A stretch of DNA of 64,000 nt. Source: Geomonas agri. Lineage in GTDB: Bacteria > Desulfobacterota > Desulfuromonadia > Geobacterales > Geobacteraceae. The notes below the pieces were generated by a model that was not told the DNA's origin, did no database searches, and was given only the letters and a program-made list of their open reading frames with translations. Positions 7,136 to 64,000 of this stretch are shown piece by piece. A program made the translations under genes and the position numbers. The DNA lies in assembly GCF_020179605.1 (NCBI RefSeq), contig NZ_JAINZO010000002.1:682001-746000 (forward strand). The letters run 5' to 3'. Position 1 is the stretch's first letter; each line of letters starts with the position of its first letter.

Positions 7136-7137
7136 GG

Positions 7138-8013: not shown

Positions 8014-8058
8014 GCGATACCTGCGATGGCGAAGATTTCGTCCACTCCCCCTCGCCCT

Positions 8059-8114: not shown

Positions 8115-8165
8115 CGGCGCCAAAGGCGAAAGACTCTCTCATTTTGAGGACTTGGTCAAGCAAAT

Positions 8166-8245: not shown

Positions 8246-8259
8246 GTGTAGGAAGGAAC

Positions 8260-9102: not shown

Positions 9103-9127
9103 AGGCTTTGTCTCTCGTAAGGCGATT

Positions 9128-9203
9128 AACAGGGATAAAAGGGATGAAGGGGATAAAACCTCAGGCTTTTATTGTTATCCCTTTTATCCCCTTTATCCCT
9201 GTT
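9128..9203. repeat. Inverted repeat element, AACAGGGATAAA...TTTATCCCTGTT
   Basis: The two arms, each about 30 bases of AACAGGGATAAAAGGGAT(A/G)AAGGGGATAA type, face each other across a short centre. The element fills most of the 105-base gap between flxB and flxA. Related copies: a single arm at 8166 and a full inverted pair at 26862-26972. Confidence 0.8.
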
Positions 9204-9207
9204 CGTT

Positions 9208-10218: not shown

Positions 10219-10245
10219 AAGAGTCTCTTTCGTCTTGGCCTTTTT

Positions 10246-10410
10246 CCCCTCGCCCTTCGGGAGAGGGGCAGGGGTGAGGGCGCTGCTGGCTTGTGTGATG
10301 GTGTTACGGCTTCCACTCCTCCCCCCGGAGGGGGGAGGCTGGGTGGGGGGGAGCCAGCGATGAAAAGCCCCCTCCCTGTCCCTCCCCCTCCAGGGGAGGG
10401 GACCTCGGGC
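10246..10410. repeat. Cluster of GC-rich REP-like units between flxC and flxB
   Basis: CCCCTCGCCCTTCGGGAGAG is followed by GGGGTGAGGG (to 10280), and then by CTCCCCCCGGAGGGGGGAGG and CCCCTCCAGGGGAGGGGAC. The units are inverted repeats able to form strong hairpins inside the operon transcript, so they may attenuate or stabilise the mRNA. Confidence 0.7.
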
Positions 10411-11355: not shown

Positions 11356-11419
11356 GTCGTTGTCCGTAGGCGCCGCGATTGGCGTGGGCGCGAAGATTTT
11401 TGGTGCGAGAGGTAGAAGC

Positions 11420-11518
11420 GTTCCCCCTCCCTGACCCTCCCCCTCCGGGGGCGGGGACTATTCGAGCTTCGTCCATTACTCCTCCCCCCGGAGGGGGGAG
11501 GTCGGGGGGGGGCTGCCC
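11420..11518. repeat. GC-rich REP-like units between flxD and flxC
   Basis: Two units, CCCTCCCCCTCCGGGGGCGGGG and CTCCCCCCGGAGGGGGGAGG, fill the gap inside the operon. Same family as 10315-10400 and 22108-22145. Confidence 0.65.
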
Positions 11519-11527
11519 CAAGGAAAG

Positions 11528-12061
11528 CTAGCCTATACTGTCGTACGCCTCTTTCAGCTCCGGCGAATTGAGAACCGTGGACTTGTCCACCGAAGTCCCG
11601 GCGAAGGTGGACCACTGCTCCTCGTGCTCGAGTTCCTTGAATTCGGGCATCGGGCCCATGGTGCGTACCCGTTCGGTCAGCTCGGTCACCACGTCGACCC
11701 ACTTGCCACCCTCGGCCGCGGAGACCCAGGAGAACTGGAGCCGGTTCAGGTCGACCCCGACGAAGTTGAGCAGCGCGCGGAAGGCGGCGAAGCGGCGCCG
11801 GGCGTGGAAGTTGCCGGCCATGTAGTGGCAGTCGCCGGGATGGCACCCCGACACCAGCACCCCGTCCGCCCCTTTCTGAAAGGCGCGCAGGATGAAGACC
11901 GGGTCGATCCTTCCCGTGCAGGGGAACTTGAGCACCCGAACGTTGGACGGGTACTGCATCCTGCTGGTCCCCGCGAGGTCCGCCCCCGCGTAGGTGCACC
12001 AGGTACAGACGAAGGCGACAATCTTTGGTTCAAAGTCATGCTTGATGTGTTCAGCGTGCAT
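11528..12061 (-). CDS. flxD: MvhD/FlxD-like hydrogenase iron-sulfur (delta) subunit
   Basis: A 177-residue protein of the FrhD/MvhD family, recognisable from VAFVCTWCTYAGADLAGTSR, VLKFPCTGRIDP and GCHPGDCHYMAGN. In methanogens MvhD hands electrons from a partner dehydrogenase to HdrA through a 2Fe-2S cluster. Here it sits just downstream of hdrA (31-base gap), with no hydrogenase large subunit in view, so the electron donor is more likely the FlxABC module. All family cysteines appear intact. Confidence 0.88.
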   Translation of the reverse strand: MHAEHIKHDFEPKIVAFVCTWCTYAGADLAGTSRMQYPSNVRVLKFPCTGRIDPVFILRAFQKGADGVLVSGCHPGDCHYMAGNFHARRRFAAFRALLNFVGVDLNRLQFSWVSAAEGGKWVDVVTELTERVRTMGPMPEFKELEHEEQWSTFAGTSVDKSTVLNSPELKEAYDSIG

Positions 12062-12092
12062 GAAAAGTCCTTTTAGAAACTGGGTCAGAAGT

Positions 12093-14090: not shown

Positions 14091-14122
14091 AAGCTCCTCA
14101 ATCGTTCGCTGCCGCCGTCAGG

Positions 14123-15076
14123 CTAGAGCAGCTGTTTATCTCTCAACAGCGGTTTCGGGTCGGTGATGACGCTCTCGAAACCGAGGCTCTCCGAGGCCAC
14201 GCCCATGGCGAGCGCCGCGAGCTGGGTGACGTAGAAGATGGGGAGGTCACGCTGGTCGGGGGCACTGCCACCGTGCAGCTCGGAGCCGAAGATGTTGCCG
14301 AACAGGGTGGAGTCGGGAGCGCCGTAGGCTTCCTTGATCTCCTTCTGGCGGATGTCCAGGTTGCCGTGGCACAAGGGGCAAGCCACCATGATGCAGTCCG
14401 CGCCGGCGATGCGCGCGGATTCGAGGATGGCGTTGGAGAGCTTGAGTACCACGCCGGGGCGGGACAGGGTAAAGTTCGCGCCGCAGCATTCCATGCGGTG
14501 GCTCCACTTGACCGGCTCTGCCCCCAGCGCGCGCAGGAGGTCCTCCATGATGCTCGGATCTTCGCAATCGTCCAGTTCCGGCACCTCAGGCGGACGGGTC
14601 AAGAGGCAGCCGTAGTAAGGGGCGACCTTGAGCCCCAAAAGCGGCTTCTTGACGCTTTCTTCGAGCTTGGCCAGGCCGTACTCGCGGGCGAGTATCTCCA
14701 TGATGTGCTTGACCGGCTTGTTGAGGGCGGCCGGGCCGTCGATGGCGACTTCGACCTGCTTTCTCTTGCTGTCGTCCTCTTTCAAGTGGTGCTGGGTGGT
14801 CTTCAGACGCGAGAAGCAGGCGGCGCAGGCGACGGCCAGGTCCCCCTCGACCTCTTCGGCCAGTGAGAGGTTCTTGGCGCAGAGCGACAACGACAGGAGC
14901 TCGTCCACGTTGTGGGCGGGGGTGGCGCCGCAGCAGAACCAGTCCGGCACTTCTTTTAGCCCCACGTTGAGCGCCTTGAACAGCGCCCGGGTGGAGATAT
15001 CGTATTCGCGCCCGGAAGCGTGCAGCGAGCACCCCGGGTAATAGGAATAACTAAGACGTTTCTTGCCAGGTGTCAC
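14123..15076 (-). CDS. hdrB: HdrB-like heterodisulfide reductase subunit B
   Basis: A 317-residue protein with the two cysteine-rich CCG-type motifs of HdrB: VPDWFCCGATPAHN near residue 47 and HRMECCGANFTLSRPG near residue 205, plus YYPGCSLH at the N terminus and a CPLCHGNLD stretch. In methanogen HdrB these bind the noncubane 4Fe-4S clusters that cleave the disulfide, so this is the presumed catalytic subunit. Its start overlaps the stop of hdrC (ATGA), indicating coupled translation. The physiological disulfide or thiol substrate in Geobacter-type bacteria is not evident. Confidence 0.92.
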   Translation of the reverse strand: MTPGKKRLSYSYYPGCSLHASGREYDISTRALFKALNVGLKEVPDWFCCGATPAHNVDELLSLSLCAKNLSLAEEVEGDLAVACAACFSRLKTTQHHLKEDDSKRKQVEVAIDGPAALNKPVKHIMEILAREYGLAKLEESVKKPLLGLKVAPYYGCLLTRPPEVPELDDCEDPSIMEDLLRALGAEPVKWSHRMECCGANFTLSRPGVVLKLSNAILESARIAGADCIMVACPLCHGNLDIRQKEIKEAYGAPDSTLFGNIFGSELHGGSAPDQRDLPIFYVTQLAALAMGVASESLGFESVITDPKPLLRDKQLL

Positions 15077-15657
15077 AGCGCCTCCCCTTTCTTGCGCATC
15101 TCCTCGATCCGCTTGAAGATCCCTTCGATCTCCGCGATGTTCTTGTTCTTGGAATGGAACATCTTCAGCTTTCCTTTGGAGATCAGCTTTGGTCCGAGCA
15201 TGAGGTCTTTGAGGAACTGTCCGCTCTTCATGTTGAAGGCGGCGCCCAGGCGCAGTTCATACTGGCGGCCGTAGGTGCGGATGTTCTCTATAAAGAGACG
15301 GTTGGCGAGCTGCACGTAGCTCTCTTTGGAGGGGCCGTCGGCGTCCCAGGAGAGTTTTCTGAGCGCATCCATGATGGCGGCGAGATCGACCTTGTTGGGG
15401 CAGCGGGTGGTGCAGGTCTCGCAAGAAGCGCAGTACCAGATTGAGCGGCCGGCGAGGATGCGCTGACCCTGCCCCAACTGCAGCAGGCGCACCACCCGGT
15501 TGGGCGGATGCTCCATGAAGGTGGACATGGGGCAGCCGGCCGAACATTTGCCGCACTGGAAGCAGCGCCGGACCGAACTGCCGGACAGTGCCTCCACCTT
15601 CTTCACGAACCCGATGTTCATGGTCTCGTTGGAGAGGTGCATCAACTTGTTTTTCAC
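15073..15657 (-). CDS. hdrC: HdrC-like heterodisulfide reductase subunit C
   Basis: About 194 residues with two 4Fe-4S motifs, CFQCGKCSAGCPM and CASCETCTTRCPN, as in HdrC, which feeds electrons to HdrB. I chose the GTG at 15657 because GAGG lies six bases upstream with good spacing and the reading starts near the usual HdrC length; the frame stays open to an ATG at 15744, but that start has no ribosome-binding site. First gene of the leftward hdrCBA-flxDCBA operon. The leader on the minus strand holds a perfect AAAGGGC/GCCCTTT hairpin (15736-15751). Confidence 0.9.
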   Translation of the reverse strand: MKNKLMHLSNETMNIGFVKKVEALSGSSVRRCFQCGKCSAGCPMSTFMEHPPNRVVRLLQLGQGQRILAGRSIWYCASCETCTTRCPNKVDLAAIMDALRKLSWDADGPSKESYVQLANRLFIENIRTYGRQYELRLGAAFNMKSGQFLKDLMLGPKLISKGKLKMFHSKNKNIAEIEGIFKRIEEMRKKGEAL

Positions 15658-16149
15658 TGCGGACCTCGTGACTGGTTCATGGTCGGGGACCATTTTGTTA
15701 ATAAACAGATCGAAATCATACGCCCAATGAAAGTGAAAGGGCAAGCCCTTTGTAACGGGAAACCGTCATGCCGAAGAACGTTGTTTTAAAAACGTGGAAA
15801 TTTCTGTCATACGAAAAATTGGAATGGACTATACGCCATTTTAAAACAAAAAAGCAAGCAATTGTTTTTCACCAAACTGTCTGAAAAAGAAGGGCTTTTA
15901 TGAAAAAGCATGGATAAATGGGCTTTTCTGCGGGTCCTGTAAGTGAGAAAATCGCTGCAAAAAGTGAAATTTTAGAACAAGAGAGCCTTTGTTATCATTC
16001 GCGCCAGAAGTACTTGAAGTAGCGCAAGAAATGGTTAGAAAATTCAGATACGGGGAAAATCTCGCTGCACAGGCGTTTGACGGGGTCAAAAGAGCGTGTT
16101 TACGTTTTTTTAAAACAAAGAGCGTAAATTATTGGAATCGGCAAATACT
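15658..16149. other. AT-rich divergent intergenic region between hdrC and the ABC exporter
   Basis: This stretch of nearly 500 bases is far richer in A and T than its surroundings. It contains runs such as TTTTAAAACAAAAAAG (15839) and TTTTTTTAAAACAAAGAG (16107) and repeated GAAAAAG and AGAGCGT words. No convincing ORF is seen. It must hold the promoter of the hdr-flx operon, but I could not place a -35/-10 pair on the minus strand with confidence. It resembles, loosely, the 21-bp repeat region at 40769-41240. Confidence 0.5.
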
Positions 16150-53023: not shown

Positions 53024-53746
53024 ATGGAAAAGGAGTATGCTGACGTCACCTGCGCGAGCTGCAGCGCGGTATGGCAGAAAAAAGGGACCACCAACTGCTG
53101 GAGCGGGGATCCCGAGACGGCGCCGCCCAGGCCGGGCAACTGCCCTGCCGATCGGCACGCCGAGGTGGTCAAGGAAACGGCGGAGCTGATGAAAGGGGAG
53201 AGCAAGGACGCCAAGATGGCGTTCGTGGCGGCCCGCGTGGAAGGGCTTTGCTACCAACCCATCCCCGGCAGCGATGCGGTCAACGCACGCTGGACCCGGG
53301 TCGAGGACACCATCGCTTTCGCAAAGCTCATGGGATACCAAAGAATAGGCATCGCCACTTGCATCGGCCTCCTCGAGGAATCCGAGCGGCTGGTCGCGAT
53401 ACTGAAGGCCCAGGGGTTTACTCCGTTAAGCGTCTGCTGCAAGGCGGGGAGCATTGATAAGAAGGAATTGGGGCTCGCCGAGAGCGACAAGGTGCGTCCG
53501 GGCACCTTCGAACCAGCCTGCAACCCGATCGCCCAAGCCCAGATCTGCAATGATCTCGATACAGACATGAACATGATCGTCGGCCTGTGCGTCGGGCACG
53601 ACATGCTCTTCAACAAGTACTCTAAGGCCCCGGTGACCACCTTGGTGGTGAAGGACCGCGTCACCGGCCACAACCCCGCTGCCGTACTTTACGGCCAGAA
53701 CTTCTACTATAAGCGTCTCCAAAAGGGGCCCATGCATATTGAGTAG
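53024..53746 (+). CDS. DUF1847 cysteine-rich (metal-binding) protein; 3' end is the integration site of the adjacent element
   Basis: 240 residues from ATG 53024 (AAAGGAGG upstream). Cys-rich start (CASCSAVWQKKGTTNCWSG) and several later cysteines (LCYQP, CIGLLEESE, VCCKAGS, EPACNPIAQA, GLCVGHD) fit the DUF1847 family, thought to bind metal. The last codons (LQKGPMHIE) lie within attL: the same LQKGPM stretch reappears at the far right end of the element followed by IVE, so the present C terminus was supplied by the integrated element. Confidence 0.85.
   Translation: MEKEYADVTCASCSAVWQKKGTTNCWSGDPETAPPRPGNCPADRHAEVVKETAELMKGESKDAKMAFVAARVEGLCYQPIPGSDAVNARWTRVEDTIAFAKLMGYQRIGIATCIGLLEESERLVAILKAQGFTPLSVCCKAGSIDKKELGLAESDKVRPGTFEPACNPIAQAQICNDLDTDMNMIVGLCVGHDMLFNKYSKAPVTTLVVKDRVTGHNPAAVLYGQNFYYKRLQKGPMHIE
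53716..53734. repeat. attL core (19-bp direct repeat)
   Basis: TCTCCAAAAGGGGCCCATG, identical to 63904-63922. It encodes LQKGPM at the end of the DUF1847 gene. Flanking bases differ on both sides. Confidence 0.88.
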
Positions 53747-53756
53747 TTTGTTCATG

Positions 53757-53786
53757 TTGATATGAGTTGGCAAACATTCGTATAAT
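53757..53786 (+). promoter_or_regulatory. Promoter-like sequence inside the left end of the element
   Basis: TTGATA at 53757-53762, 18-base spacer and a perfect TATAAT at 53781-53786. Transcription would start near 53793 and meet the terminator at 53820 before reaching the integrase. Confidence 0.6.
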
Positions 53787-53819
53787 CAATAATTTACGCT
53801 TGACTTTGCACCAGGAGAG

Positions 53820-53854
53820 CCGCTAAGGTTTAATACAACTTTAGCGGTTTTTTT
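53820..53854 (+). terminator. Strong intrinsic terminator upstream of the integrase
   Basis: Arms CCGCTAAGGTT and AACTTTAGCGG (with one G-U pair in RNA) around TAATAC, followed by seven T. It could end the DUF1847 operon, or attenuate transcription into the integrase. Confidence 0.8.
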
Positions 53855-53863
53855 ATTTCTAAA

Positions 53864-53910
53864 CCTCCCCATGTCCTACCCGAGTTGCGGGTTGATGGTC
53901 ATGGGTAGGA
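53864..53910. repeat. Left subterminal repeat, arm-type site
   Basis: CCTCCCCATGTCCTACCCG (53864-53882) is repeated exactly at 63825-63843 near the right end. Within it TCCTACCC (53874) faces GGGTAGGA (53903-53910), an 8-bp inverted pair. A likely binding site for integrase arms or the AlpA-like protein. Confidence 0.65.
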
Positions 53911-53928
53911 AAGTGAAGGGTGCCAATC

Positions 53929-55185
53929 ATGCCAAAGATCAACCTTACGTTGCGTGAGATACGCCAGATCATTCCGCCTGCATCGGGGAGGGCGGATTAT
54001 TTCGACAACGAGCTGAGAGGTTTCTTGCTGAGGGTGTCGGCCGACTTTCTGGATAAGGCGGGGACGAGGCACAGGGGCGCCCGCGTCTTCTATGTCCAGA
54101 CAGACGTAATGGACCCAGCAAAGGGCAAATTCGTTACCCGCAAGGCCAAGGTAGGGGCATTCGGAGAATTTACCCCTGAGGAGGCACGTGGGAAGGCGCG
54201 GTTGCTCCTGCAGGATCTCCGGGCAGGAAAGCCGGTTGTTCCGTCAAACGTGCCGACGCTTGCAAGGATGATGGAGATTCACCTCACCGACAAGGCATTC
54301 GGTCCGAGGACTGAAAGTGCCTACCGTTCCGACATCCCGGCCAAATTTCCAACCTGGTTGGATATGCCGTTATCCGAGATAGCGAAGATCCCTCCGAGCG
54401 TAATGATAGATCGATTCAAGGATGTAGAAAACAATAACGGTCCCATGGCTGCAAAGAATGCCTTTGGAAAGCTGCAGGCGATCTTAAATTACGCAATGGT
54501 AAAGTTCCCTTCGGTGGTACAGGTAAACCCTTGCTCGGTCATTGGCCAGGCTGGGTTGTGGCCAGAGACGAAGAGCCGGAATGATTGCCTTAGGGGGAAC
54601 GACTTCAAGATTTTCTCGGGGGGGTTGGGCGGCTTCAATGCCATCACTCAAGATGCATATCGCTTTTGCCTCTATCATGGTCTACGAAACCGTGAGGCAG
54701 CCGGCCTACGATGGGAATTCGTTGACTTCGGAAATGAGACGTTGACGCTGCCAGAAACCAAAACGAAGATCCTGCATGTGCCTTTATCTAGGCAATCCCT
54801 GGCCATTCTGCAGCGGCGGCAAACAGAGAACCCCAAGGGCAACCCCTTTGTGTTCCCTTCCCTTTATGCCAATAACAAGAGTAAGACGGGGCACGTCGCT
54901 TTGAAGGCCGATCTGCTCCAGTTCAGAACAGGTCTTAAACTTACGGTACATGGGCTCCGGAGGTCTTTCATCACGATTGGTAAAAAGCTACACTTTCATG
55001 AGGAGGCCGACCGGCTGACAAATCATGCTGATGGTTCTGTTACGGGCAAGCACTACGACGGCCGTGAGGTTGACGACCTTCGCGGGCCCCTCCAGGCTAT
55101 TGCTAACGAGATTGAGCGGCTTATGGTGCAGGGTGTCGGTGGTAAGGTGGTGGAACTGGCAACCGCAAGAATCAATCAACAGTAG
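53929..55185 (+). CDS. int: Tyrosine recombinase / integrase of the element
   Basis: 418 residues from ATG 53929 (GAAGGG upstream; GTG 53920 is an alternative). P4-type integrase with an N-terminal arm-binding region like DUF4102 (ADYFDNELRGFLLRVS, FGEFTPEEARGKARLLL). Catalytic residues: Arg253 (HGLRNREAAGLRW), His341-x2-Arg344 (HGLRR), His366 (LTNH) and Tyr376 (KHYDG). It should carry out site-specific insertion at the 19-bp repeat. First gene inside attL, transcribed into the element. The 3' end overlaps the convergent repressor gene by 14 bases. Confidence 0.92.
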   Translation: MPKINLTLREIRQIIPPASGRADYFDNELRGFLLRVSADFLDKAGTRHRGARVFYVQTDVMDPAKGKFVTRKAKVGAFGEFTPEEARGKARLLLQDLRAGKPVVPSNVPTLARMMEIHLTDKAFGPRTESAYRSDIPAKFPTWLDMPLSEIAKIPPSVMIDRFKDVENNNGPMAAKNAFGKLQAILNYAMVKFPSVVQVNPCSVIGQAGLWPETKSRNDCLRGNDFKIFSGGLGGFNAITQDAYRFCLYHGLRNREAAGLRWEFVDFGNETLTLPETKTKILHVPLSRQSLAILQRRQTENPKGNPFVFPSLYANNKSKTGHVALKADLLQFRTGLKLTVHGLRRSFITIGKKLHFHEEADRLTNHADGSVTGKHYDGREVDDLRGPLQAIANEIERLMVQGVGGKVVELATARINQQ

Positions 55186-55642
55186 GATCTTTATCCTTCA
55201 ACTGGTCAAAAAGAGGAGACATTTTTTCTATGAACTCTTTGTTTGTGTTCAATTCCACCAGATACTCACGGTCCGCGTCAGCAATGATTGCGAATAATTG
55301 TTTTGTGCAGTCCAGAATTTTTAATAACCTTCTATCGGGGCCGTTCGATTCAACCAGGTCCTTTACGGTTTCAAAAATATCGTTTACATAAGGTTCGGCT
55401 TTCTCAACATTAAAAGCGTAGGCTTCTCCCCTGAGCTCGCCCACCGAGACTTTAAAATAACTGGCGAGTTTCCCCAATGTTTCTTGTGATGGTTCGCCTA
55501 TACCTTTTAGATAACGCTGGACCGTCAAGCGGGTTAAGCCAGTAGCGTTGGCCACAGCAACTTGACTTGACCCCTCAACAGCTTGTTTCAGTAGTTCGAC
55601 CACCCTGGTGGGTGTTTTACCTCCGCCTCTCCCTTTCCCCAT
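55172..55642 (-). CDS. HTH XRE-type repressor of the element
   Basis: 156 residues. N-terminal helix-turn-helix: RVVELLKQAVEGSSQVAVAN, then ATGLTRLTVQRYLKGIGEPSQETLGKLASYF. The C-terminal 85 residues are helical and unrelated to known peptidase domains, so this is not a LexA/CI self-cleaving type. Divergent from the AlpA-like gene, with palindromic operator-like sites between them. Probably keeps the element quiet. Start ATG has GAGG seven bases upstream. Confidence 0.82.
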   Translation of the reverse strand: MGKGRGGGKTPTRVVELLKQAVEGSSQVAVANATGLTRLTVQRYLKGIGEPSQETLGKLASYFKVSVGELRGEAYAFNVEKAEPYVNDIFETVKDLVESNGPDRRLLKILDCTKQLFAIIADADREYLVELNTNKEFIEKMSPLFDQLKDKDPTVD

Positions 55643-55660
55643 TTACAAACCTCGCACAAA

Positions 55661-55738
55661 AAATATACCTGCTTAAAAATAAGCATTGACATTGACGCCA
55701 GATGGTGCTTAATTATGATACATGCTTAAAATTAAGCA
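55661..55738. promoter_or_regulatory. Divergent control region with operator-like palindromes
   Basis: Two near-identical 16-bp palindromes, TGCTTAAAAATAAGCA (55670-55685) and TGCTTAAAATTAAGCA (55723-55738), and a half site TGCTTA (55706). Rightward promoter: TTGACG (55692-55697), 16-base spacer, TATGAT (55714-55719), overlapping the half site. A leftward -10 (TATATT on the minus strand, near 55661) sits beside the first palindrome. Typical of a repressor switch. Confidence 0.75.
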
Positions 55739-55761
55739 CGCAATCATAAACCGGAGGTGAT

Positions 55762-55956
55762 ATGAGGCTCCTTAAAGAACGAGAGGTCGCCGAACAAATC
55801 GGCATGTCGGTCCACTGGCTCCGCCGCAAGAGAATTACCGGCGGGGGCATTCCTTTCTTAAAACTTGGCGAAGGGAAAAGTGCCGTGCGGTATGAAGAGG
55901 AGGCAGTCGAGGCATTCAAGCGAAGCCGGGTCAGGACGTCGACCAGCCAAGCGTAA
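55762..55956 (+). CDS. AlpA/excisionase-like small HTH protein
   Basis: 64 residues: LLKEREVAEQIGMSVHWLRR, KRITGGGIPFLKLGEGKSAV and RYEEEAVEAFKRS, the usual small winged HTH pattern of AlpA and excisionases. GGAGG precedes the ATG. It stands opposite the repressor, where satellites place the activator of their early genes. Could promote excision or transcription. Confidence 0.8.
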   Translation: MRLLKEREVAEQIGMSVHWLRRKRITGGGIPFLKLGEGKSAVRYEEEAVEAFKRSRVRTSTSQA

Positions 55957-55990
55957 GCCGGCCCATTGGGGGCACAACATGGAGGAGACG

Positions 55991-56377
55991 ATGAAAAGAC
56001 GCGAAAAACAGGAGACTAGCCCCAACAGCATCCAGAGACAGTACATGTGCTTACAGTTGCAGAAAGCTATTGACCGTTTCGACAAGGTCGTCGCCAAGGC
56101 CACAAGCAGCAAAAAAAACTTGGCCTTCCCCTTATTGAACTCTAACAACAACCCACAGGAGGACACGAGAATGAGCAGAGAAGAAATGGACAAGGGCCTG
56201 GATCGGATCAGCGAGGGGATTGAGAAACTGGACGCACGAGGCCGCTTGTCTGTGCTTCGGCACCTTGGCAAAGTTTCTGGAATCCTCACTGATGAAGAAT
56301 GGCCGCCCGAGTTGAAGCAACAGTACCACGAGACCGAAGCGCGGTTAATCGAGCGGGCTCAGAAAGAAGCAGCCTAA
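55991..56377 (+). CDS. Hypothetical element protein
   Basis: About 128 residues from ATG 55991 (GGAGGAG upstream); another start at 56171 also has a strong AGGAGG site, so a shorter product may be made too. Helical, charged; the second half (MSREEMDKGLDRISEGIEKL ... DEEWPPELKQQYHETEARLI) has coiled-coil features. No family recognised. Confidence 0.55.
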   Translation: MKRREKQETSPNSIQRQYMCLQLQKAIDRFDKVVAKATSSKKNLAFPLLNSNNNPQEDTRMSREEMDKGLDRISEGIEKLDARGRLSVLRHLGKVSGILTDEEWPPELKQQYHETEARLIERAQKEAA

Positions 56378-56443
56378 AACCAAAACAAAGGCCACGTCGC
56401 GAGAAGTCGCCGTGCCGCGCACACGCGTGGAAAAGGAGGACAC

Positions 56444-56692
56444 TTGTACCCTGCAATCAACGACCGAGACATGAAACGAGCGGCAGTAGTTAAAGCTGCC
56501 GGCCACCCCGTCACCATCTTCAAACTCTGCAGTCCTCGCTGTACCGCATCATACGAGTCCAGCCCCGCAGTCAGAAAACTCCTTGAGGCCTACGAGTCCG
56601 GCCAGGTACTCCCTATCCCCCCGAAGAAGATCATGCAGGCCTATGGCGAACTCATGGGCCAGTGCAAGGACTTGAAACAGGGGGCGTTATGA
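56444..56692 (+). CDS. Small hypothetical element protein, 82 residues
   Basis: TTG start supported by AAAAGGAGG. Two Cys pairs-like spots (LCSPRC, MGQCKD) and basic helices. Stop overlaps the start of the RepA-like gene (ATGA), suggesting a replication-linked role, but no family is recognised. Confidence 0.6.
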   Translation: MYPAINDRDMKRAAVVKAAGHPVTIFKLCSPRCTASYESSPAVRKLLEAYESGQVLPIPPKKIMQAYGELMGQCKDLKQGAL

Positions 56693-58218
56693 CCTCCACC
56701 GCAGACCTCGAGCGGGATCTGCTAACGGCCTTGCTGGCTGAGGGCACCGCCTACGCTAACACCGCAGGCCTTACGCCTGCTGACTTCTGGGAAGATGATC
56801 ACGGTGAGTTGTTCAAGATCTTGGGCCAGATCCCCGCTGCGCCCGGTGCAGTTCCCCCTGCTTTGATCGGGGCTAACATTCCCAACAAAGGAAAACGGCA
56901 CCGACTCACGGCCTTGGTAGCAGAGCTTTACCAGGGCGACGTCGCCGCCGTCCTTGTTTCCCAGATAGCCCAAGCCGTGAAATCTGAGGCTCGCAACCGA
57001 GAGATAGCGGCAGCGGCCCAGATCTTAGCAAAATCCCCGGGCAACGAGGCGGCCAAGGCGACATTGGCCGCTCTGCTCGAAACGGGATCCGCGTCGCGAC
57101 CCACAAGGGCGTTGTTTCTTTCTGCCAGTGAATTCCTCCAAGAAGAAGCACATATCGCATACCTCATAGCGGGTTTGATCGAGCGGGACACAACCGGGCA
57201 GCTCTTCGGCCCGAGTGGGGGTGGTAAGACTTTTGTTGCGCTGCACCAGGCCCTGGCTGTGGCCACCGGTGGCAACGTCCACGGCCACAGAGCGGAGCGC
57301 GGCCTGGTTCTCTACCTTGCAGGGGAAGGGCATGGAGGACTGCGCCGGCGCGTCAAGGCCTATCAAAAGCATCATGGCATTGAGCCTCACTGTCTCGGGC
57401 TGTTTCATGTCAGCCGGCAAACAATCTCTTTTGACGGTTCTGGGCTCCCCGCTGCCAAAGCAGAGGCCAAAGCCCTGGCCGACGCCTTCGGAACACCGGT
57501 TGCGCTGATCGTGGTGGATACCCTGGCGCGCCACCTGGACGGCGACGAAAACTCTACTTCTGACATGAACCGCTTTGTTGCCGCGGTCGATGATCTCCGT
57601 TCGGCCTTCCCCGGCGCTGTCGCCTTGATCGTACACCACAGCGGGCACGGAGAGGAAACCAAGAAACGGGCGCGCGGCTCGTCGGCGCTCAAAGCCGCCA
57701 TGGACTTTGAAATCTGTTGTGACCGTGGTTTGCTCACCTTTACCAAGATGAAGGACAGCGAGGCGCCCGAGCCGATCCCCTTTAAGCTCCGGCCTGTGCA
57801 GATCGGGGCCAGCCAGGACGGCACGCCCCTGGCGTCTTGTGTGGTGGAATTCGGCGAGCGTTCGGAACGGGACAAGGTGGCGTCATTCACGACGATGGAG
57901 CGCATTGCCGCCAAGGCCCTTGTTGTAGCTTCGAAGCGCACCAGGACGGACCACAATGGCAAAGCCGCTGCTCTGGTGAGTGACTGGAGGGATGATTTCT
58001 ACGCCTTACGCCGGACGGATGATCCGGAAGCCAAAACTAATACCCTCAAAAATGCGTTCCTCAGGGCTGAAACCGGCTTGATCGAAAAGAAGTCGATAGC
58101 AGCAGACGGACACCTCAGAATCCTGACAGCGTCCCTGCCGTCATACGTCACAACATCGTCACAAAGCGTCACATATGACGTGGAAGAGAAGGCGTCACAT
58201 CGTCACACACCCTTATAA
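56689..58218 (+). CDS. RepA-like AAA ATPase / helicase with DnaB-like N-terminal domain
   Basis: 509 residues. An N-terminal helical region like the DnaB N domain (ADLERDLLTALLAEGTAYANTAGL) is followed by a RecA-type ATPase: Walker A GPSGGGKT (174-181), Walker B VALIVVDT (271-278), and VALIVHHSGH later. This is the fold of plasmid RSF1010 RepA and of phage/satellite helicases. Iteron-like repeats begin inside its 3' end, so it probably starts replication of the excised element. No primase domain is seen. Confidence 0.85.
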   Translation: MTSTADLERDLLTALLAEGTAYANTAGLTPADFWEDDHGELFKILGQIPAAPGAVPPALIGANIPNKGKRHRLTALVAELYQGDVAAVLVSQIAQAVKSEARNREIAAAAQILAKSPGNEAAKATLAALLETGSASRPTRALFLSASEFLQEEAHIAYLIAGLIERDTTGQLFGPSGGGKTFVALHQALAVATGGNVHGHRAERGLVLYLAGEGHGGLRRRVKAYQKHHGIEPHCLGLFHVSRQTISFDGSGLPAAKAEAKALADAFGTPVALIVVDTLARHLDGDENSTSDMNRFVAAVDDLRSAFPGAVALIVHHSGHGEETKKRARGSSALKAAMDFEICCDRGLLTFTKMKDSEAPEPIPFKLRPVQIGASQDGTPLASCVVEFGERSERDKVASFTTMERIAAKALVVASKRTRTDHNGKAAALVSDWRDDFYALRRTDDPEAKTNTLKNAFLRAETGLIEKKSIAADGHLRILTASLPSYVTTSSQSVTYDVEEKASHRHTPL

Positions 58219-58250
58219 AGGGTGTGACGATGTGACGGTCTCTTGTGACG
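58146..58250. repeat. Iteron-like cluster of CGTCACA heptamers with a hairpin; candidate origin
   Basis: CGTCACA occurs at 58146, 58157, 58167, 58193 and 58201, and its complement TGTGACG at 58223, 58231 and 58244: eight in 105 bases. Units 58193-58237 form an almost perfect inverted repeat around CCCTTATAAAGGG. The cluster covers the end of the RepA-like gene and the space behind it. Origins next to their initiator gene are common in satellites. Confidence 0.65.
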
Positions 58251-58290
58251 GTCCCGGATATATCCAAGACCCCGAGGAGGAACAGCTCAC

Positions 58291-58431
58291 ATGGAACTGA
58301 AAGACAACCTCCCCCTCCCTGCTAGCGATAAGGATGAGAACTTTATGGCCAACCTACTCGATGCGGTAAAGCGGAAAAGGGAGGAAGCGACAGGCGGCCG
58401 GCGAGAGTACCAACCGGAGAAGGACAAGTAG
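58291..58431 (+). CDS. Very small element protein, 46 residues
   Basis: Reads MELKDNLPLPASDKDENFMA then NLLDAVKRKREEATGGRREY; charged, no domain recognised. GGAGG lies ten bases before the ATG. Short, so only moderately supported. Confidence 0.45.
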   Translation: MELKDNLPLPASDKDENFMANLLDAVKRKREEATGGRREYQPEKDK

Positions 58432-58577
58432 TCTAGGGGGCGGGGGCAGATCCCCTCAGCCCTCGTTTCTGGACACCGCGTGTGTCCCCACGCTCATAAA
58501 ATATTTCCTGTTTGAATAAATGTTCAAAGATGTTCGAACGTTGGGGAGAAATCAAACGTTGGAGGGGGAAATCAAAC

Positions 58578-58766
58578 ATGGGAATCAAACGGCCGGCAAT
58601 GAACACCAGAAAGACCGCGGAATATCTCGCCTGCAGCACCTCATACGTGTACCGGCTCTTCAATGACGGGGTGCTTGACGGCTTCCGCCTGGGGGGCCGT
58701 AAGGGCGTGAGGATCTACGTCGATTCAGCCGAGGCTTTCATCATGGACCACGAAAACGAAAAATAA
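58578..58766 (+). CDS. Second small HTH (excisionase-like) protein
   Basis: 62 residues from ATG 58578 with GGAGGGGG nine bases upstream. NTRKTAEYLACSTSYVYRLF and GFRLGGRKGVRIYVDSAEAF form the HTH_17/excisionase pattern. The element therefore has two proteins of this type; this one lies after the replication module and may be the excisionase. Confidence 0.72.
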   Translation: MGIKRPAMNTRKTAEYLACSTSYVYRLFNDGVLDGFRLGGRKGVRIYVDSAEAFIMDHENEK

Positions 58767-58852
58767 ATTGTCGCTATTCTCCACATTCTCCACAGCGTCG
58801 CCGGGCCGAGAAGGCGCTGTGGTACCGTGCTAGTCAAAAGGGGGAATCAAAA

Positions 58853-59395
58853 ATGCTGAATATCAACAAAGCGAAATTGAAGCTCACCGGCCAAGGAGCC
58901 GACCCGGTCCACCTGGGAGACTGCATCCGTGCCCTCCAGGCTGAAAACCTGCTGCCGGCGGACAACAACTCACCTATCAACGCAAAAGATTGTGCGGTTC
59001 TGCTTATCGGCTGCACCTCTCTGGACCCGGCGAACGCTGCCCAGCACGTTCTTGTGTATGGCGGGCTTCAGGGTGAGCTGGGGCTCTTCGGGATTTCGCT
59101 ACAGTACATACTCGGCGCCGAACCGTCGCGCATCGCTGTCACCTCCGTGAGGATCTGCCAGGACTTCCCCCTGGCGAGGATCGAGTACGCCGACAGTGAC
59201 CTTCAGGAATTCACCGCGGTTTCCTTCATCGGCAAAGGGTTGCGCCAGGAAGTGGTGGTCTCCGGCGGCCTGATCGCATCGCTGGCAATGGGGCTGAAGC
59301 ATGACACGGTGGCCGGCTGGCGGGGCGCGGAATTTCAAAAACAGCTTGAGGAGGTTTGCAATGGCCAGCAAAAAGAGCATCAAGAGCCGGTCTAA
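58853..59395 (+). CDS. Unknown element protein, 180 residues
   Basis: Compact mixed alpha/beta protein: LTGQGADPVHLGDCIRALQA, CAVLLIGCTSLDPANAAQHV and EFTAVSFIGKGLRQEVVVSG. No family recognised. GGGGGAAT precedes the ATG. Position before the capsid gene hints at a morphogenesis or packaging role, but nothing in the sequence shows it. Confidence 0.6.
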   Translation: MLNINKAKLKLTGQGADPVHLGDCIRALQAENLLPADNNSPINAKDCAVLLIGCTSLDPANAAQHVLVYGGLQGELGLFGISLQYILGAEPSRIAVTSVRICQDFPLARIEYADSDLQEFTAVSFIGKGLRQEVVVSGGLIASLAMGLKHDTVAGWRGAEFQKQLEEVCNGQQKEHQEPV

Positions 59396-59534
59396 AGCAA
59401 AATGGGTCTCCGGGCTCAGCAAGGCTAAGTTCGAAGCTTCTAGGAACAGACCCACAGCGGGATGCTGGTGGGAACGTCGAAGGGGGCCCGCCGGGATGGC
59501 GGAAAAGGCCGAAGCCAAGCGGCAGCACAAATAG
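59361..59534 (+). CDS. Small basic element protein, 57 residues
   Basis: MASKKSIKSRSKAKWVSGLS and a Lys/Arg-rich remainder; GAGGAGG six bases before the ATG. Its start lies 35 bases inside the previous gene. A nucleic-acid-binding or capsid-associated role would suit the charge, without proof. Confidence 0.6.
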   Translation: MASKKSIKSRSKAKWVSGLSKAKFEASRNRPTAGCWWERRRGPAGMAEKAEAKRQHK

Positions 59535-59604
59535 CAGTTATCCCAACTCAAACGGACCATCGGGAGATGGACCTGGCCGTGAACACGGCAAAGGATGGTA
59601 AAGC

Positions 59605-60762
59605 ATGTCTTTCGAGGCACTTAACAACGCATTCGAGAAGTTTATCGACAGCAACGACGCAAGGCTCGACAGGATAGAAGCCGGGCTTAACGCAAGGATG
59701 GATGAGATCGAAGGCAAAAGGAACAGGCCGGCGGCCGGAGTTTCCAACACCCCCGCGACCGCAGACCAGAAGGCACACAGCGAGGCCTTTAATGCCTTCG
59801 CCCGCAGGGGCATCGACAACGGCCTGCTCGACCTGGAGATCAAGGCAGGGATGTCTGTTGGCTCCGACCCGGACGGCGGCTATGCTGTTCCTTCCGAGAT
59901 CGCCAGCGACATCGAGAAGCTGGAAAAGGATGCCGTCACCATGCGCAGAATCGCCAGGGTGATCAGCATCGGTACGCCGAATTACACGAAGCTGGTGAAC
60001 AAGGGTGGCACCACGAGCGGCTGGGTCGGCGAGACCCAGGCACGCCCGGAGACGGACACCCCGCAGCTCGCCGCCCTCACTCCGTTCTGGGGGGAGATCT
60101 ACGCCAACCCCTGTGCAACACAGACCATGCTCGATGATGCCTCCTTCGACGTTGCTTCCATGCTCACCGAGTCCATCTCGGAGGAATTCACGGACCAGGA
60201 AAACACCGCCTTCATCAACGGTGACGGCCTTCTGAAACCGAAGGGCCTGCTCTCTTTCCCCGTCGACGCCGCAGCCGACAAGACCCGCGCATTCGGTACG
60301 CTGCAGTTCATCAAGACCGGCGATGCCAGCGGCTTTAAGGCGGCCTCCGCCACCGTATCCCCGGCTGATGTCCTGGTGGATCTCGTGTACTCGCTCCGCA
60401 AGCCGTACCGGCAGGGCGCCGTCTGGCTGATGAACAGCAACACCCTGGCCGTCGTGTCGAAGTGGAAAGACGCGGTAAACGGTCTGCCGATCTGGCAAAG
60501 GGGTCTGATTGAAGGGCAGCCGTCGATGCTCCTGGGCTACCCGGTGGAAGAAGACGAAGCAATGCCGGACATCGCAGCCGGTGCCTTCCCGATTGCCTTC
60601 GGCAACTTCAAACGCGGCTTCACCATCGTGGACCGCAAAGGGATCCGGGTGCTGCGGGACCCCTTTACCAACAAGCCGAATGTCCACTTCTATACCACAA
60701 AGCGCGTTGGCTCGTTCCTCAATAACTCGCAGTGTATCAAGCTGCTTAAGATCTCGGCGTAA
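59605..60762 (+). CDS. HK97-family major capsid protein
   Basis: 385 residues. The first 50 form a predicted coiled coil (NNAFEKFIDSNDARLDRIEA) like the HK97 delta domain, which is normally cut by a protease. The capsid fold follows: SVGSDPDGGYAVPSEIASDI, GTTSGWVGETQARPETDTPQ, NGDGLLKPKGLL and GYPVEEDEAMPDIAAGAFPI, with GIRVLRDPFTNKPNVHFYTTKRVG at the end, all typical of phage and satellite HK97 capsids. No protease or portal gene is next to it. Confidence 0.9.
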   Translation: MSFEALNNAFEKFIDSNDARLDRIEAGLNARMDEIEGKRNRPAAGVSNTPATADQKAHSEAFNAFARRGIDNGLLDLEIKAGMSVGSDPDGGYAVPSEIASDIEKLEKDAVTMRRIARVISIGTPNYTKLVNKGGTTSGWVGETQARPETDTPQLAALTPFWGEIYANPCATQTMLDDASFDVASMLTESISEEFTDQENTAFINGDGLLKPKGLLSFPVDAAADKTRAFGTLQFIKTGDASGFKAASATVSPADVLVDLVYSLRKPYRQGAVWLMNSNTLAVVSKWKDAVNGLPIWQRGLIEGQPSMLLGYPVEEDEAMPDIAAGAFPIAFGNFKRGFTIVDRKGIRVLRDPFTNKPNVHFYTTKRVGSFLNNSQCIKLLKISA

Positions 60763-60851
60763 AGCTCGGGTGGGGCGCTCCCTGTACTGGCCCTGGTCCT
60801 GACAAGTACAGCAAAGCCGCGGACCCGGGGTCACGGGCAGCGTGGCCACAT

Positions 60852-60890
60852 AAAGGCGGAACCGGAACCCTCCCCGGCTCCGCCTTTTTT
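60852..60890 (+). terminator. Terminator after the capsid gene
   Basis: Stem AAAGGCGGA with CCGG inner arm and its complement, followed by TTTTTT. The 336-base gap 60763-61098 otherwise holds no convincing gene. Confidence 0.75.
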
Positions 60891-61098
60891 ACTCCACCGC
60901 AGGAGCTTCCTCGACCTGCGCTACGAAAAGAGCATCGAAGGCACCGGCGTCACCGCCCGGCTCTTCTACGACGAGTTCCGCGACAAGACCGGGGACCCCC
61001 CACTGGGGGCAAATCCCTGGGGGCCTGGTTCCCATGACCGCGTGTGAGGCCACACTTGCACAAAACCAAGAAACCCTTTCAAAAATTCTGGAGGCCAC

Positions 61099-61419
61099 AT
61101 GGCAACCAAAACACCGAAGCACCTGAGCAAGGAAGCACAAGACCTGTGGAAGCGGCTGCTCGAGGAGTACGGCATTGAGGACTCACCCGGGCTTCTGATC
61201 CTGCAGACCGGTCTCGAAGCATTCGACCGGATGCGGGAGGCGCAGGCCGTCATAGCGAAAGAAGGATTGACAGTGAAGGACCGTTTTGACCAGGCGAAGG
61301 CCCACCCCTTAACCACCGTGGAAAGAGACGCCAGAGCGGCAATGCTGGCGGCCCTCAAGGCTTTGAACTTGGATCTCGAACCGCTGCAGGATCGCGCCGG
61401 CCGCCCGGCGGGGAGGTAA
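61099..61419 (+). CDS. P27-family phage terminase small subunit
   Basis: 106 residues: PKHLSKEAQDLWKRLLEEYG, IEDSPGLLILQTGLEAFDRM and REAQAVIAKEGLTVKDRF fit the P27 small terminases, which recognise packaging sites. No large subunit (ATPase/nuclease) follows, so packaging would need a helper phage; satellites often carry just the small subunit to redirect packaging. GGAGG precedes the ATG. Confidence 0.82.
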   Translation: MATKTPKHLSKEAQDLWKRLLEEYGIEDSPGLLILQTGLEAFDRMREAQAVIAKEGLTVKDRFDQAKAHPLTTVERDARAAMLAALKALNLDLEPLQDRAGRPAGR

Positions 61420-61420
61420 C

Positions 61421-61675
61421 ATGGCGACAAACCGGAAGCGCACCCCGCGCAGCAGAACTGCCCCGGCCATCTCCCCCGAGTGCTTCAACTGGCTTTGCGA
61501 CGGCAAGTACGACCCGCAGGGCGGCCCCTGGAAAGATCGTTTCTTCCTCATGCATGAAGAGAAGCGCGCGCTATGGTTCGCTCACCGCAACGAGGTGCTC
61601 GCCTGGTGGGAGAAGCGTTACCCGGGAACGAAGCCGTTCCTCTGGTGGAAATACGAAGGTGGTACCAATGCCTGA
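61421..61675 (+). CDS. Small phage-type protein next to the small terminase
   Basis: 84 residues: RKRTPRSRTAPAISPECFNW, LCDGKYDPQGGPWKDRFFLM and AWWEKRYPGTKPFLWWKYEG. Rich in Trp and basic residues, no named domain. It starts one base past the terminase stop and overlaps the next gene by 8 bases; similar small genes accompany P27 terminases in prophages as far as I recall. Confidence 0.65.
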   Translation: MATNRKRTPRSRTAPAISPECFNWLCDGKYDPQGGPWKDRFFLMHEEKRALWFAHRNEVLAWWEKRYPGTKPFLWWKYEGGTNA

Positions 61676-61924
61676 CATCAAAACAGGGAGTGTCACCGTT
61701 ACCGGCTTTTCCGAGGGAAGGGCACAAAAAAAGAAACTGCTGCCGTTGCGCTGGGATATCTGAACGCTCCTCTGCCGATAGAGCAGGTGTTGGCGGCGGC
61801 TGCTCATGAATACTGCCATGCGATGCAGTTTGGCCAGAATCGACCAGGAGACTGCACTGAGGCCGATGCTTTCGCCGCTGATGTGGTGCCGGTGTTCCTA
61901 GCGTCTGGAATGTCTACGCGATAA
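61668..61924 (+). CDS. Possible -1 frameshifted gene with HExxH motif
   Basis: The zero frame from ATG 61668 reads 22 codons to ...GRAQKK and stops at 61763. At 61727-61733 lies A AAA AAG, the bacterial slippery heptamer. A -1 shift there joins ETAAVALGYLNAPLPIEQVL, then AAAAHEYCHAMQFGQ with the zinc motif HEYCH, and TEADAFAADVV as the likely third ligand region, ending at 61924: an 85-residue product. Alternatively it is a simple mutation that broke a small metallopeptidase-like gene. The downstream half has no start codon of its own. Confidence 0.5.
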
Positions 61925-62065
61925 CACTATTCATACCGTCAAGGGACTAACTTATTCCTGAGGAAAACTATCTAACTATCTGTAAACTAGTCACATCTAA
62001 ATTAGGTACATTTTTTGCTTAAATAACTTTTATTATCTAAATGCAATAGTGTTGGGCAAGGAGGT

Positions 62066-63382
62066 GTGGTGAAAAGCGAAAAGATAGCTGTTGCAGCAGG
62101 AATTCTTCTGTTCGTTAGCGTACCGGCTTATGCTTTCCACTCCGGCGGCGTCGCCGAGTGCGAAGGTTGCCACACAATGCATGGCTCTTTTGAAGGTCAA
62201 TCCATATGGGGCCCTATTGTCGGCATGCCCCAGTACGAGACTGGCCCCTACCTGCTGAAAGCCCAGGATCAGTCCGGCTCCTGCTTGAACTGCCATCAAG
62301 CAGCCGACACCACCGGTTCCGGCTACCACATCTCCACCGCCAACGTTACCCCCTACGACAGCACCCGCGCCGTTGAAGGCACCCCGGGCGGCGACTTTGC
62401 CTGGCTGAAGAAGTCTTTTCCTCTTTCCGGAAGAAATATGATGACCACCATTGATGGCGACCGCAAGGGCCACAACATCATCGCCAGTGACTTTGGCTAC
62501 ACCGCTGACAGGACCCTGACCGCAGCTCCTGGTGGCACCTATCCTGCAGCGAACCTCGCATGCTCCAGCTGCCACGATCCCCACGGCACCTATCGTCGTT
62601 TTGCTGACGGCACCCAGGCCCGCACCGGCCTGCCGATCTTCAACTCCGGTTCCTACACCAGCAGCGCCAACCCGATCGCCGGCGTGTCCGCAGTTGGTGT
62701 CTACCGCATCCTAGGCGGCGTAGGCTACCAGCCCAAATCCTTGGCCGGCTCCTATGCGTTCGTTGCCCCGGCTCCTGACGCGGTTGCCAAGTCCTCTTAC
62801 AACGGCGTATCCACCACCGTCGACACTGCCGCCGGCCAGAAAGACCTGGTTGCATACGGCCAGGGTATGTCCGAGTTCTGCGCCAACTGCCACACCGCCA
62901 TGCTCGAAAACGCTTACACCTCCGGCATGAAAGGCCTGGTCCACCCGGCCGGTAACTCTGCCAAACTGACCGCCCCGATCGCCGCCAACTACAATGCCTA
63001 TGTAACTTCCGGCGTTATGACCGGCACCATCGGCTACAGCGCCCTCGCACCGTATGAGCTGGGCACCAACGACTACACCACCCTGAAGGCATTCGTGGCC
63101 TCTCCGACCGCAGCCACCACCAGCAACAACGTACTGTGCCTCTCCTGCCACCGCGCCCACGCTTCCGGTTTCGAGAGCATGACCCGCTACAGCCTGACCA
63201 ACGAGTTCATGACGGTTGCCGACGCAACCGGCGCAGCACTGTATGACTCCAGCACCACGGAAAACAAGATCAACTACGGTTTGAGCGTCCAGCAGCAGAC
63301 CGACGCCTACAACGGCCGTCCTGCCACGGTGTTTGGTCCTTACGCTCGTAACTACTGCAACAAATGCCACGCTAAAGATTAA
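62066..63382 (+). CDS. omcS: OmcS-like six-heme c-type cytochrome (nanowire cytochrome homologue) inside the element
   Basis: 438 residues with a signal peptide ending AYA and six CxxCH sites: Cys32, 73, 166, 272, 358 and 431 as first cysteines. The same sites and words as Geobacter OmcS are seen (HSGGVAECEGCHTMH, CSSCHDPHG, YRILGG.GYQPKSLAGSYAF, VAYGQGMSE.CANCH, CLSCHRAHASGF, CNKCHAKD as the C terminus). OmcS polymerises into extracellular filaments that carry electrons to metals and electrodes. GTG start behind AAGGAGG. It stands between the frameshifted gene and the right end of the element, so it is mobile-element cargo. Symbol by homology; OmcT or another paralogue is possible. Confidence 0.88.
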   Translation: MVKSEKIAVAAGILLFVSVPAYAFHSGGVAECEGCHTMHGSFEGQSIWGPIVGMPQYETGPYLLKAQDQSGSCLNCHQAADTTGSGYHISTANVTPYDSTRAVEGTPGGDFAWLKKSFPLSGRNMMTTIDGDRKGHNIIASDFGYTADRTLTAAPGGTYPAANLACSSCHDPHGTYRRFADGTQARTGLPIFNSGSYTSSANPIAGVSAVGVYRILGGVGYQPKSLAGSYAFVAPAPDAVAKSSYNGVSTTVDTAAGQKDLVAYGQGMSEFCANCHTAMLENAYTSGMKGLVHPAGNSAKLTAPIAANYNAYVTSGVMTGTIGYSALAPYELGTNDYTTLKAFVASPTAATTSNNVLCLSCHRAHASGFESMTRYSLTNEFMTVADATGAALYDSSTTENKINYGLSVQQQTDAYNGRPATVFGPYARNYCNKCHAKD

Positions 63383-63403
63383 TCTTGAAATTGTTCAAAC
63401 AAA

Positions 63404-63429
63404 AAGAGCCGGGAGAGATCCCGGCTCTT
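63404..63429 (+). terminator. Terminator of the cytochrome gene
   Basis: Perfect 11-bp stem AAGAGCCGGGA with its complement and a GAGA loop. The T-run after it is weak (TTACTTTG). Confidence 0.65.
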
Positions 63430-63532
63430 ACTTTGCTGGTCTAGCCAGTCTCAAGACTTAGGTGACACCTTACAAGTTCCTTCCCTTATCAGATAGTTGG
63501 GACTCTAGTTCTCTTTGCTGCAGAAGTGGTCT

Positions 63533-63712
63533 ATGGCACCGCCGCACCTATATCGTACCTATAACTATATGCTTCGCACAAGGCGGGACCGTCAATTGAC
63601 GCCAGGAGAACGGAAAAACATGATTGATGTATGGGGGGCGGACTTAATGGGCGACGGGAAGGCGCAGCAGGCTATGAGCAGGAAATTTGACCTGCAGCCA
63701 GTGGGGACGTAG
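63533..63712 (+). CDS. Possible small protein near the right end
   Basis: 59 residues: MAPPHLYRTYNYMLRTRRDR, QLTPGERKNMIDVWGADLMG. Basic, no domain recognised, poor ribosome-binding site; an inner ATG with AGGAG also exists. Kept as a tentative gene. Confidence 0.35.
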   Translation: MAPPHLYRTYNYMLRTRRDRQLTPGERKNMIDVWGADLMGDGKAQQAMSRKFDLQPVGT

Positions 63713-63734
63713 TGTGCTTTCTATAGAAGGGAAA

Positions 63735-63814
63735 AGCGGGAATTCCCGCTATTGAAAAACCGGAATTCCGGTTATTGGAGAGGGCGTCGGTATTACTGGA
63801 CGCCCTTTTCTTTT
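63735..63814. repeat. Two perfect palindromes and a terminator-like hairpin at the right end
   Basis: AGCGGGAATTCCCGCT (63735-63750) and AACCGGAATTCCGGTT (63758-63773) are perfect and share the centre GGAATTCC; their centres are 23 bases apart. Then AGGGCGTC/GACGCCCT (63781-63806) with a T-run. May bind a dimeric regulator or terminate transcription leaving the element. Confidence 0.6.
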
Positions 63815-63824
63815 GCGGTCCGTT

Positions 63825-63883
63825 CCTCCCCATGTCCTACCCGTGCCAGTTTGCGGTTGAAAATGGTATTTAAAGTTGGTAGG
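63825..63883. repeat. Right subterminal repeat, arm-type site
   Basis: CCTCCCCATGTCCTACCCG (63825-63843) is the exact partner of 53864-53882. TCCTACC (63835) faces GGTAGG (63878-63883), as on the left. Both copies lie 60-130 bases inside the att cores. Confidence 0.65.
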
Positions 63884-63903
63884 TTAGCGCTATATTCCCC
63901 TTT

Positions 63904-63922
63904 TCTCCAAAAGGGGCCCATG
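63904..63922. repeat. attR core (19-bp direct repeat)
   Basis: TCTCCAAAAGGGGCCCATG, identical to 53716-53734. Chromosomal sequence resumes right after it. Confidence 0.88.
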
Positions 63923-63934
63923 ATCGTGGAGTAG
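63923..63934 (+). pseudogene. Displaced original 3' end of the DUF1847 gene
   Basis: In the frame that continues LQKGPM the bases encode IVE and a stop, matching HIE-stop at the left junction. This is what remains when an element inserts in a gene's 3' end and supplies a replacement. Confidence 0.75.
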
Positions 63935-64000
63935 GTGGCTAGATTTGAGCGTGGGGTGGCAATAGGGGAGAGAACATAATTATTGATGGAAACGGAGCCT

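Follow-up and report, generated by a model that had tools for sequence, protein, structure and literature searches.

Multiheme cytochrome genes have already been described in phage-derived regions of metal-reducing bacteria. The putative prophage of Desulfuromonas soudanensis, reported in 2016, carries genes for triheme, 11-heme, and MtrC-family decaheme cytochromes; one more prophage cytochrome case was given for Geopsychrobacter electrodophilus, and the phage-borne spread of cytochromes was proposed in the accessible part of the same paper (PMC4914508). Of 33 Geobacter genomes, 12 carried OmcS-related genes, whose recurrent duplications, gains, and losses were uncorrelated with the species phylogeny; the accessible text of this paper names no vehicle for their spread, the word "mobile" being absent from it and "phage" occurring twice (PMC12977616). 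OmcS is not placed in a prophage in the available portions of PMC11434368 and PMC10553843. Prophage-borne cytochromes are known, but the literature searched, which left bioRxiv preprints and most subscription papers outside, yielded none of the OmcS type in either a phage or a satellite.

The window analyzed here, i.e., the whole stretch of 64,000 nt corresponding to bases 682001-746000 of contig C2 in a 4.68-Mb genome of seven contigs, contains an omcS-family gene inside an element of approximately 10.2 kb bounded by exact 19-bp att repeats (Table 1). The element resembles the D. soudanensis and G. electrodophilus regions in carrying a multiheme cytochrome gene within phage-derived DNA of a metal reducer, but the D. 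soudanensis prophage has sheath, tail, and baseplate genes in the part of its description available (PMC4914508), whereas the window element is small, carries a filament-type OmcS, and yielded no large terminase or portal. Phage-inducible chromosomal islands (PICIs) and capsid-forming PICIs, as described in the accessible part of PMC10803314, share with it the size of about 10 kb, the integrase, the excisionase/AlpA-like regulators, the replication gene, the small terminase, and an own capsid; unlike them, the window element gave no portal or large terminase, and its relatives have a tape-measure gene.

Table 1. Coordinates of the element, its ends, and its genes in the window
Feature	Position	Strand	Basis or remark
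DUF1847 gene (PF08901) hosting the left att at its 3' end	53024-53746
Left att repeat (3' end of DUF1847)	53716..53734	+	exact 19-bp repeat; same site in use in G007, G011, G014, G005
Inner 19-bp exact direct repeat, left	53864..53882	+	repeat D12; possibly an integrase arm site
Tyrosine integrase, 421 aa	53920..55185	+	PF00589 E 2e-9; phrog_1 E 1e-31
HTH repressor-like regulator	55172..55642	-	PF01381 E 3e-10
Excisionase/regulator-like small HTH protein, here named AlpA-like	55762..55956	+	phrog_66 E 2e-6; phrog_2528 E 5e-7
AAA helicase/replication protein, 518 aa	56662..58218	+	PF13481 E 6e-34; phrog_2850, phrog_906
Second excisionase/regulator-like HTH protein	58512..58766	+	phrog_66 E 6e-4
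Conserved element protein, no assigned function	58853..59395	+	also in the twin element; phrog_9767 E 1e-3
HK97-type major capsid protein, 385 aa	59605..60762	+	PF05065 E 1e-69; 55% identical copy in the twin
Terminase small subunit	61099..61419	+	PF05119 E 8e-7; phrog_83
84-aa protein adjoining the small terminase	61421..61675	+	86% identical in the twin, 64% in G014
Short frame, weak by-eye likeness to the N-terminal part of a neck (tail-completion) protein	61668..61763	+	compared with the L099 protein, phrog_5
omcS-family hexaheme c-type cytochrome gene, intact, 438 aa, GTG start	62066..63382	+	OmcS 6ef8 E 6e-134; six CxxCH; 13 invariant His
Tape-measure remnant, approximately last 32 codons	63614..63712	+	tblastx 62% over 37 aa to the G014 tape-measure C terminus, E 1e-10 (against ten loci)
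Right-end segment common to the twin element	63733..63814	+	73% over 85 columns to L042:5546-5470, E 1e-7
Inner 19-bp exact direct repeat, right	63825..63843	+	repeat D12
att repeat, right	63904..63922	+	exact 19-bp repeat

By its sequence, the cytochrome belongs firmly to the OmcS family, in agreement with the first-pass annotation, which had named a six-heme protein of the OmcS type with a CNKCHAKD end. The gene is a single open frame with six CxxCH motifs, this C terminus, and a signal-peptide-like N terminus (judged by eye). In a phmmer search of the PDB sequences, OmcS was the sole match (6ef8/6nef, 450 bits), with residues 24-438 of the element protein aligned on residues 1-407 of the 6ef8 chain, so that the likeness to Geobacter sulfurreducens OmcS covers the whole mature chain. 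The two differ in that the window copy is the sole multiheme gene in an att-bounded element; filament formation by the window copy is a prediction from sequence. The six heme motifs and seven further His residues were invariant in a family alignment of 16 sequences, from which three rows of an earlier larger alignment had been left out. One of these seven residues outside the CxxCH motifs, H39, corresponds to His16 of mature OmcS, the inter-subunit ligand. In the trees, whose rows did not include OmcT and OmcJ sequences, the element protein grouped with the 69-82% identical copies, apart from the hexaheme paralogues (~40-50%) of these genomes. No PHROGs family was matched at E 0.01, the general doubled-CXXCH model alone scored above its cut-off in NCBIfam, and the AlphaFold prediction had a mean pLDDT of 29.

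The att repeats are part of a 31-nt repeat (84%), and the possibility that they had arisen by chance, which the first-pass annotation had entertained, was ruled out by comparison with related genomes. This comparison included every one of the 30 DUF1847 matches that had a locus id, further DUF1847 matches without a locus being left out. In three of 18 same-genus relatives (G007, G011, and G014), the same DUF1847 gene is followed by an integrase 73-75% identical to that of the window, and a second att copy is present at the far end, delimiting elements of approximately 16.6, 17.1, and 16.0 kb, respectively. The site is empty in G003 and G013, where the gene runs straight into the sequence found at window-scale position 64584 or just after. 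The elements at the DUF1847 site, those of these three siblings and of G005, are contained in loci L157, L158, L090, and L096. That of G005 is a 2.1-kb att-bounded island containing an AlbA-like 551-aa gene alone (name given by eye). In G002, the first att copy is followed 755 bp on by another att-like copy. In the genome under study, an FKBP-type gene separates the right att from what seems to be a broken third att approximately 670 bp further on (both recognized by eye; L040 905-1590, from window position 63905 on and past the window end). The same arrangement with a whole third att was seen in G014, indicating tandem build-up at the site. The FKBP gene also follows DUF1847 in G006 and G015, for which no integrase match was obtained at E 1e-30.

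Placement of omcS inside a region with an integrase, a capsid, and a small terminase gene, as originally proposed, was borne out by the exact repeats and the corresponding Pfam matches; the element, its site, and the position of omcS within it are firmly established. The integrase, repressor, helicase, capsid, and small-terminase frames are open along their full length, and the sense-strand frames longer than 200 aa in the element are those of the integrase, the helicase, the capsid protein, and OmcS. The features of satellites of the PICI type present in the element are site-specific, att-bounded integration with its own integrase and the combination of an AlpA-like regulator (assigned through the phrog_66 family only), a replication gene, and a small terminase. 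Portal and large terminase belong to the packaging set of capsid-forming PICIs; neither was found among the ten element proteins scanned against PHROGs, and the element therefore falls short of a complete phage. The short neck-like frame following the 84-aa gene gave no tblastx match better than E 0.1.

A twin element is present in the same genome on contig C1, with a length of 10.6 kb and 55-bp exact repeats at a tRNA-Val gene (L042, G000:C1:1812000-1831000, 5329-15999). In addition to the related capsid, the small-terminase segment of the twin is 86% identical at the DNA level, and a further three segments (134-1053 nt) are 83-91% identical. Its integrase is different, the window integrase as query matching itself alone in its own genome. 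After the 84-aa gene, the twin encodes a tape-measure protein of 757 aa (PF09718 E 1e-23; phrog_339), and tape-measure proteins are also encoded towards the right end in G014 (736 aa), G011 (1148 aa), and G007 (1095 aa, a call based on weak matches, E 6e-7). Thus, the twin and the three siblings all have the gene, of which the window element retains approximately the last 32 codons. Since omcS is flanked by the 84-aa gene on one side and the stub on the other, with short frames alone in front, it occupies the position of most of the tape measure, which it may have replaced in one event. Among the frames of at least 60 aa in the four comparison elements, none contained two or more CxxCH motifs. 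The right ends of the siblings carry other extra genes, namely, MqsR/MqsA together with a SecB-like gene (G007), a SIR2-like gene (G011), and frames that match no Pfam family (G014); at the right end of the twin, no extra gene could be named.

The suggestion that the gene could be an extra copy beside a chromosomal omcS was confirmed. The genome contains seven further omcS homologs, of which three at the start of contig C1 are close (82, 82, and 79%) and four are 43-46% identical. The two 82% copies encode an identical protein, and their DNA, counted from the contig end, is the same for 1853 bp, either through a true duplication or through the assembly; a response regulator and a sensor kinase (by eye) lie between them (L041 1-6042). 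The homology of the element omcS to the chromosomal copies begins at position 62093 and ends at 63384, with different flanks on both sides. With respect to the nearest chromosomal copy, dS was 0.41 and dN/dS 0.34, against 0.32 and 0.39 between two chromosomal copies. A recent duplication from the chromosomal array was rejected in its simple form, since the flanks are not shared and dS reaches 0.41. Synonymous differences between the element and chromosomal copies fall by 0.164 in the last third of the gene (5 of 2000 permutations), and a 40-codon stretch is 99% identical. However, a gene-conversion tract is not claimed, because the control pair also shows a fall (0.093) and 145 of 2000 codon shuffles gave an identical run as long as the longest one observed (55 nt). 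Likewise, no claim is made for a mosaic with the copy of G077 (segment score reached in 269 of 5000 permutations).

Trees were built from full-length matches (> 300 residues) from chosen loci, a subset of all matches: the first included 17 loci, with 29 rows plus the window giving 30 rows, 29 of them different (L048 contributed none), and the second combined 15 of these 30 rows with seven new ones, 22 in all. The element copy grouped with a chromosomal copy, the G077 copy, and other copies of the genus (99/98; 94/98 for the same node in a tree without G077), with the inner order not settled. The tree thus places the element copy in the omcS pool of its own genus, without fixing its exact origin there. 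G077 belongs to another family, and its omcS (L180 3317-4627) is 79% identical in nucleotides, against 73-75% for the other same-genus genomes listed. The grouping of this copy with those of the window's genus represents a transfer of omcS between families, i.e., omcS crosses families. The G077 gene adjoins a second hexaheme gene, no phage genes were seen around it, and this transfer cannot be ascribed to the element. Altogether, DNA matches to omcS were obtained in 34 of 141 genomes of the order, own genome included, and the surroundings were inspected in some of them. In G015, an extra tandem omcS pair is located at 3.10 Mb (L044 6274-9358), away from the other copy of this genome; no phage gene was seen nearby, and the flanks seem by eye to repeat pieces of a neighboring gene.

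Changes unique to the element omcS amounted to 18 synonymous and 27 nonsynonymous, and the same count for the chromosomal copies gave 4 and 5, and 14 and 26, respectively, so constraint on the branch of the element copy is weak, although the chromosomal copies are under no stronger constraint by this count. Immediately before omcS, its own strand showed no sigma-70-like site, and a sigma-54-like GG-N10-GC site was equalled in 46 of 500 shuffles and was rejected.

In our opinion, the locus is probably best explained by a phage-derived, satellite-like element at the DUF1847 site that took up an omcS from the pool at the cost of its tape measure, the gene being an accessory extra copy. According to this scheme, whose order of events is inferred, the element would have integrated via its tyrosine integrase into the 3' end of DUF1847, restoring the gene end; an omcS-family gene from the pool of Geobacter-type bacteria would then have entered by illegitimate exchange, which would have removed most of the tape-measure gene and left a moron-like extra copy with its own flanks. 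What the sequence shows directly is an element at a defined site, with omcS inside it, a tape-measure stub, and an unbroken cytochrome frame. The scheme is further supported by the intact hemes and invariant histidines, the dN/dS of 0.34, the three close chromosomal copies, and the GC content, which is lower in the element without omcS than in omcS or the flank. The encoded OmcS could be exported and matured by the machinery serving the chromosomal OmcS proteins and could add to, or mix into, OmcS-type filaments. The integrase of the element may still be able to excise it, while its packaging would need a helper phage supplying at least the large terminase, the portal, and tail parts. The presence of the combination in a single genome among those searched, the weak constraint on its branch, the promoter results, and the short frames in front of omcS count against this explanation, the short frames also fitting a decaying element, and the loss of the tape measure argues against easy packaging. 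An accessory gene caught by a satellite-like element is favored, and the present mobility of the element is doubtful. Of the original proposal of an OmcS-like gene on a phage-satellite-like element, the family, the element, and the extra copy stand. Present movement of the element, travel of OmcS with it, and a benefit to the host are hypothetical: the tape measure is reduced to a stub, the copy belongs to the omcS pool of the host genus, and no other genome with the combination was found among those searched.

The opposite arrangement, with omcS native to its chromosomal place and phage genes inserted around it, is highly improbable. The sole point found for it is the native-like GC content of omcS (0.598, with 0.602 in the 13-kb flank and 0.554 in the element without omcS), whereas DUF1847 is directly followed by other genes at the empty sites in G003 and G013, and omcS has element genes on both sides, those of the small-terminase region before it and the tape-measure stub after it. 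Moreover, the left flank (61640-62090) matched four of 58 genomes, own genome included, the other three giving a 23-bp match only; hence the same neighborhood in many relatives, which would have marked the gene as native, was not seen. Two further readings concern the present mobility of the same element and overlap with the favored one. A decayed, immobile element that caught a stray omcS duplicate, with the gene neutral or kept by the host and the element having no part in its spread, has a considerable chance, somewhat short of even. It agrees with the stub and the short broken frames beside omcS, with dispersed copies arising in the genus without phage genes, such as the G015 pair, and with the repeated OmcS-like duplications in the accessible text of PMC12977616, but the open integrase, repressor, helicase, capsid, and small-terminase frames and the intact cytochrome frame speak against it. 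An active satellite with omcS as a selected cargo, spread among Geobacter-type bacteria, appears unlikely. Accessory genes in the same-site siblings (MqsR/MqsA with SecB-like; SIR2-like) indicate that cargo carriage is usual, and omcS does cross families; however, no second genome with omcS in such an element was found among those searched, no OmcS relative was detected by tblastn (E 0.001) in 50,697 phage and 72,556 plasmid records or by two pattern scans of IMG/VR (the first reaching near relatives only), and the copy in the other family has a hexaheme gene, and no phage gene seen, beside it. For cargo in the strict sense, moving with the element and helping the host, omcS is no more than a candidate. 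The boldest version, in which a live satellite swapped its tape measure for a nanowire cytochrome gene and spreads filament ability in phage particles, is improbable and offered as speculation; altered surface OmcS might then also change phage attachment, because a Shewanella surface cytochrome is cited as a phage target in the accessible part of PMC12977616.

With the accessory-copy explanation preferred, an omcS inside a small virus-derived mobile element raises the possibility that genes of this kind can be transferred among strains. The locus provides a concrete candidate vehicle for OmcS-like gene gain and loss, with exact ends, empty sites, siblings, and a cytochrome-free twin; if the live-satellite version were true, the ability to build or alter conductive filaments would be passed on in phage particles. 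Furthermore, the twin encodes an integrase, a helicase, a capsid, a small terminase, and a tape measure, but no large terminase that was seen; Geobacter-type bacteria may thus contain a group of small elements of this composition, possibly a satellite group not yet described. Megablast of window positions 53700-63950 against the phage records gave no match, and the window-type capsid was found in two of 58 genomes, own genome included, the other match being 26% identical. A related capsid was present on sixteen IMG/VR contigs and four genome contigs. Four of the IMG/VR loci were inspected (L098, L099, L100, and L102); two are located on contigs of 36-37 kb with a fuller head and tail set, as recognized by eye, one neck protein among them being profile-tested.
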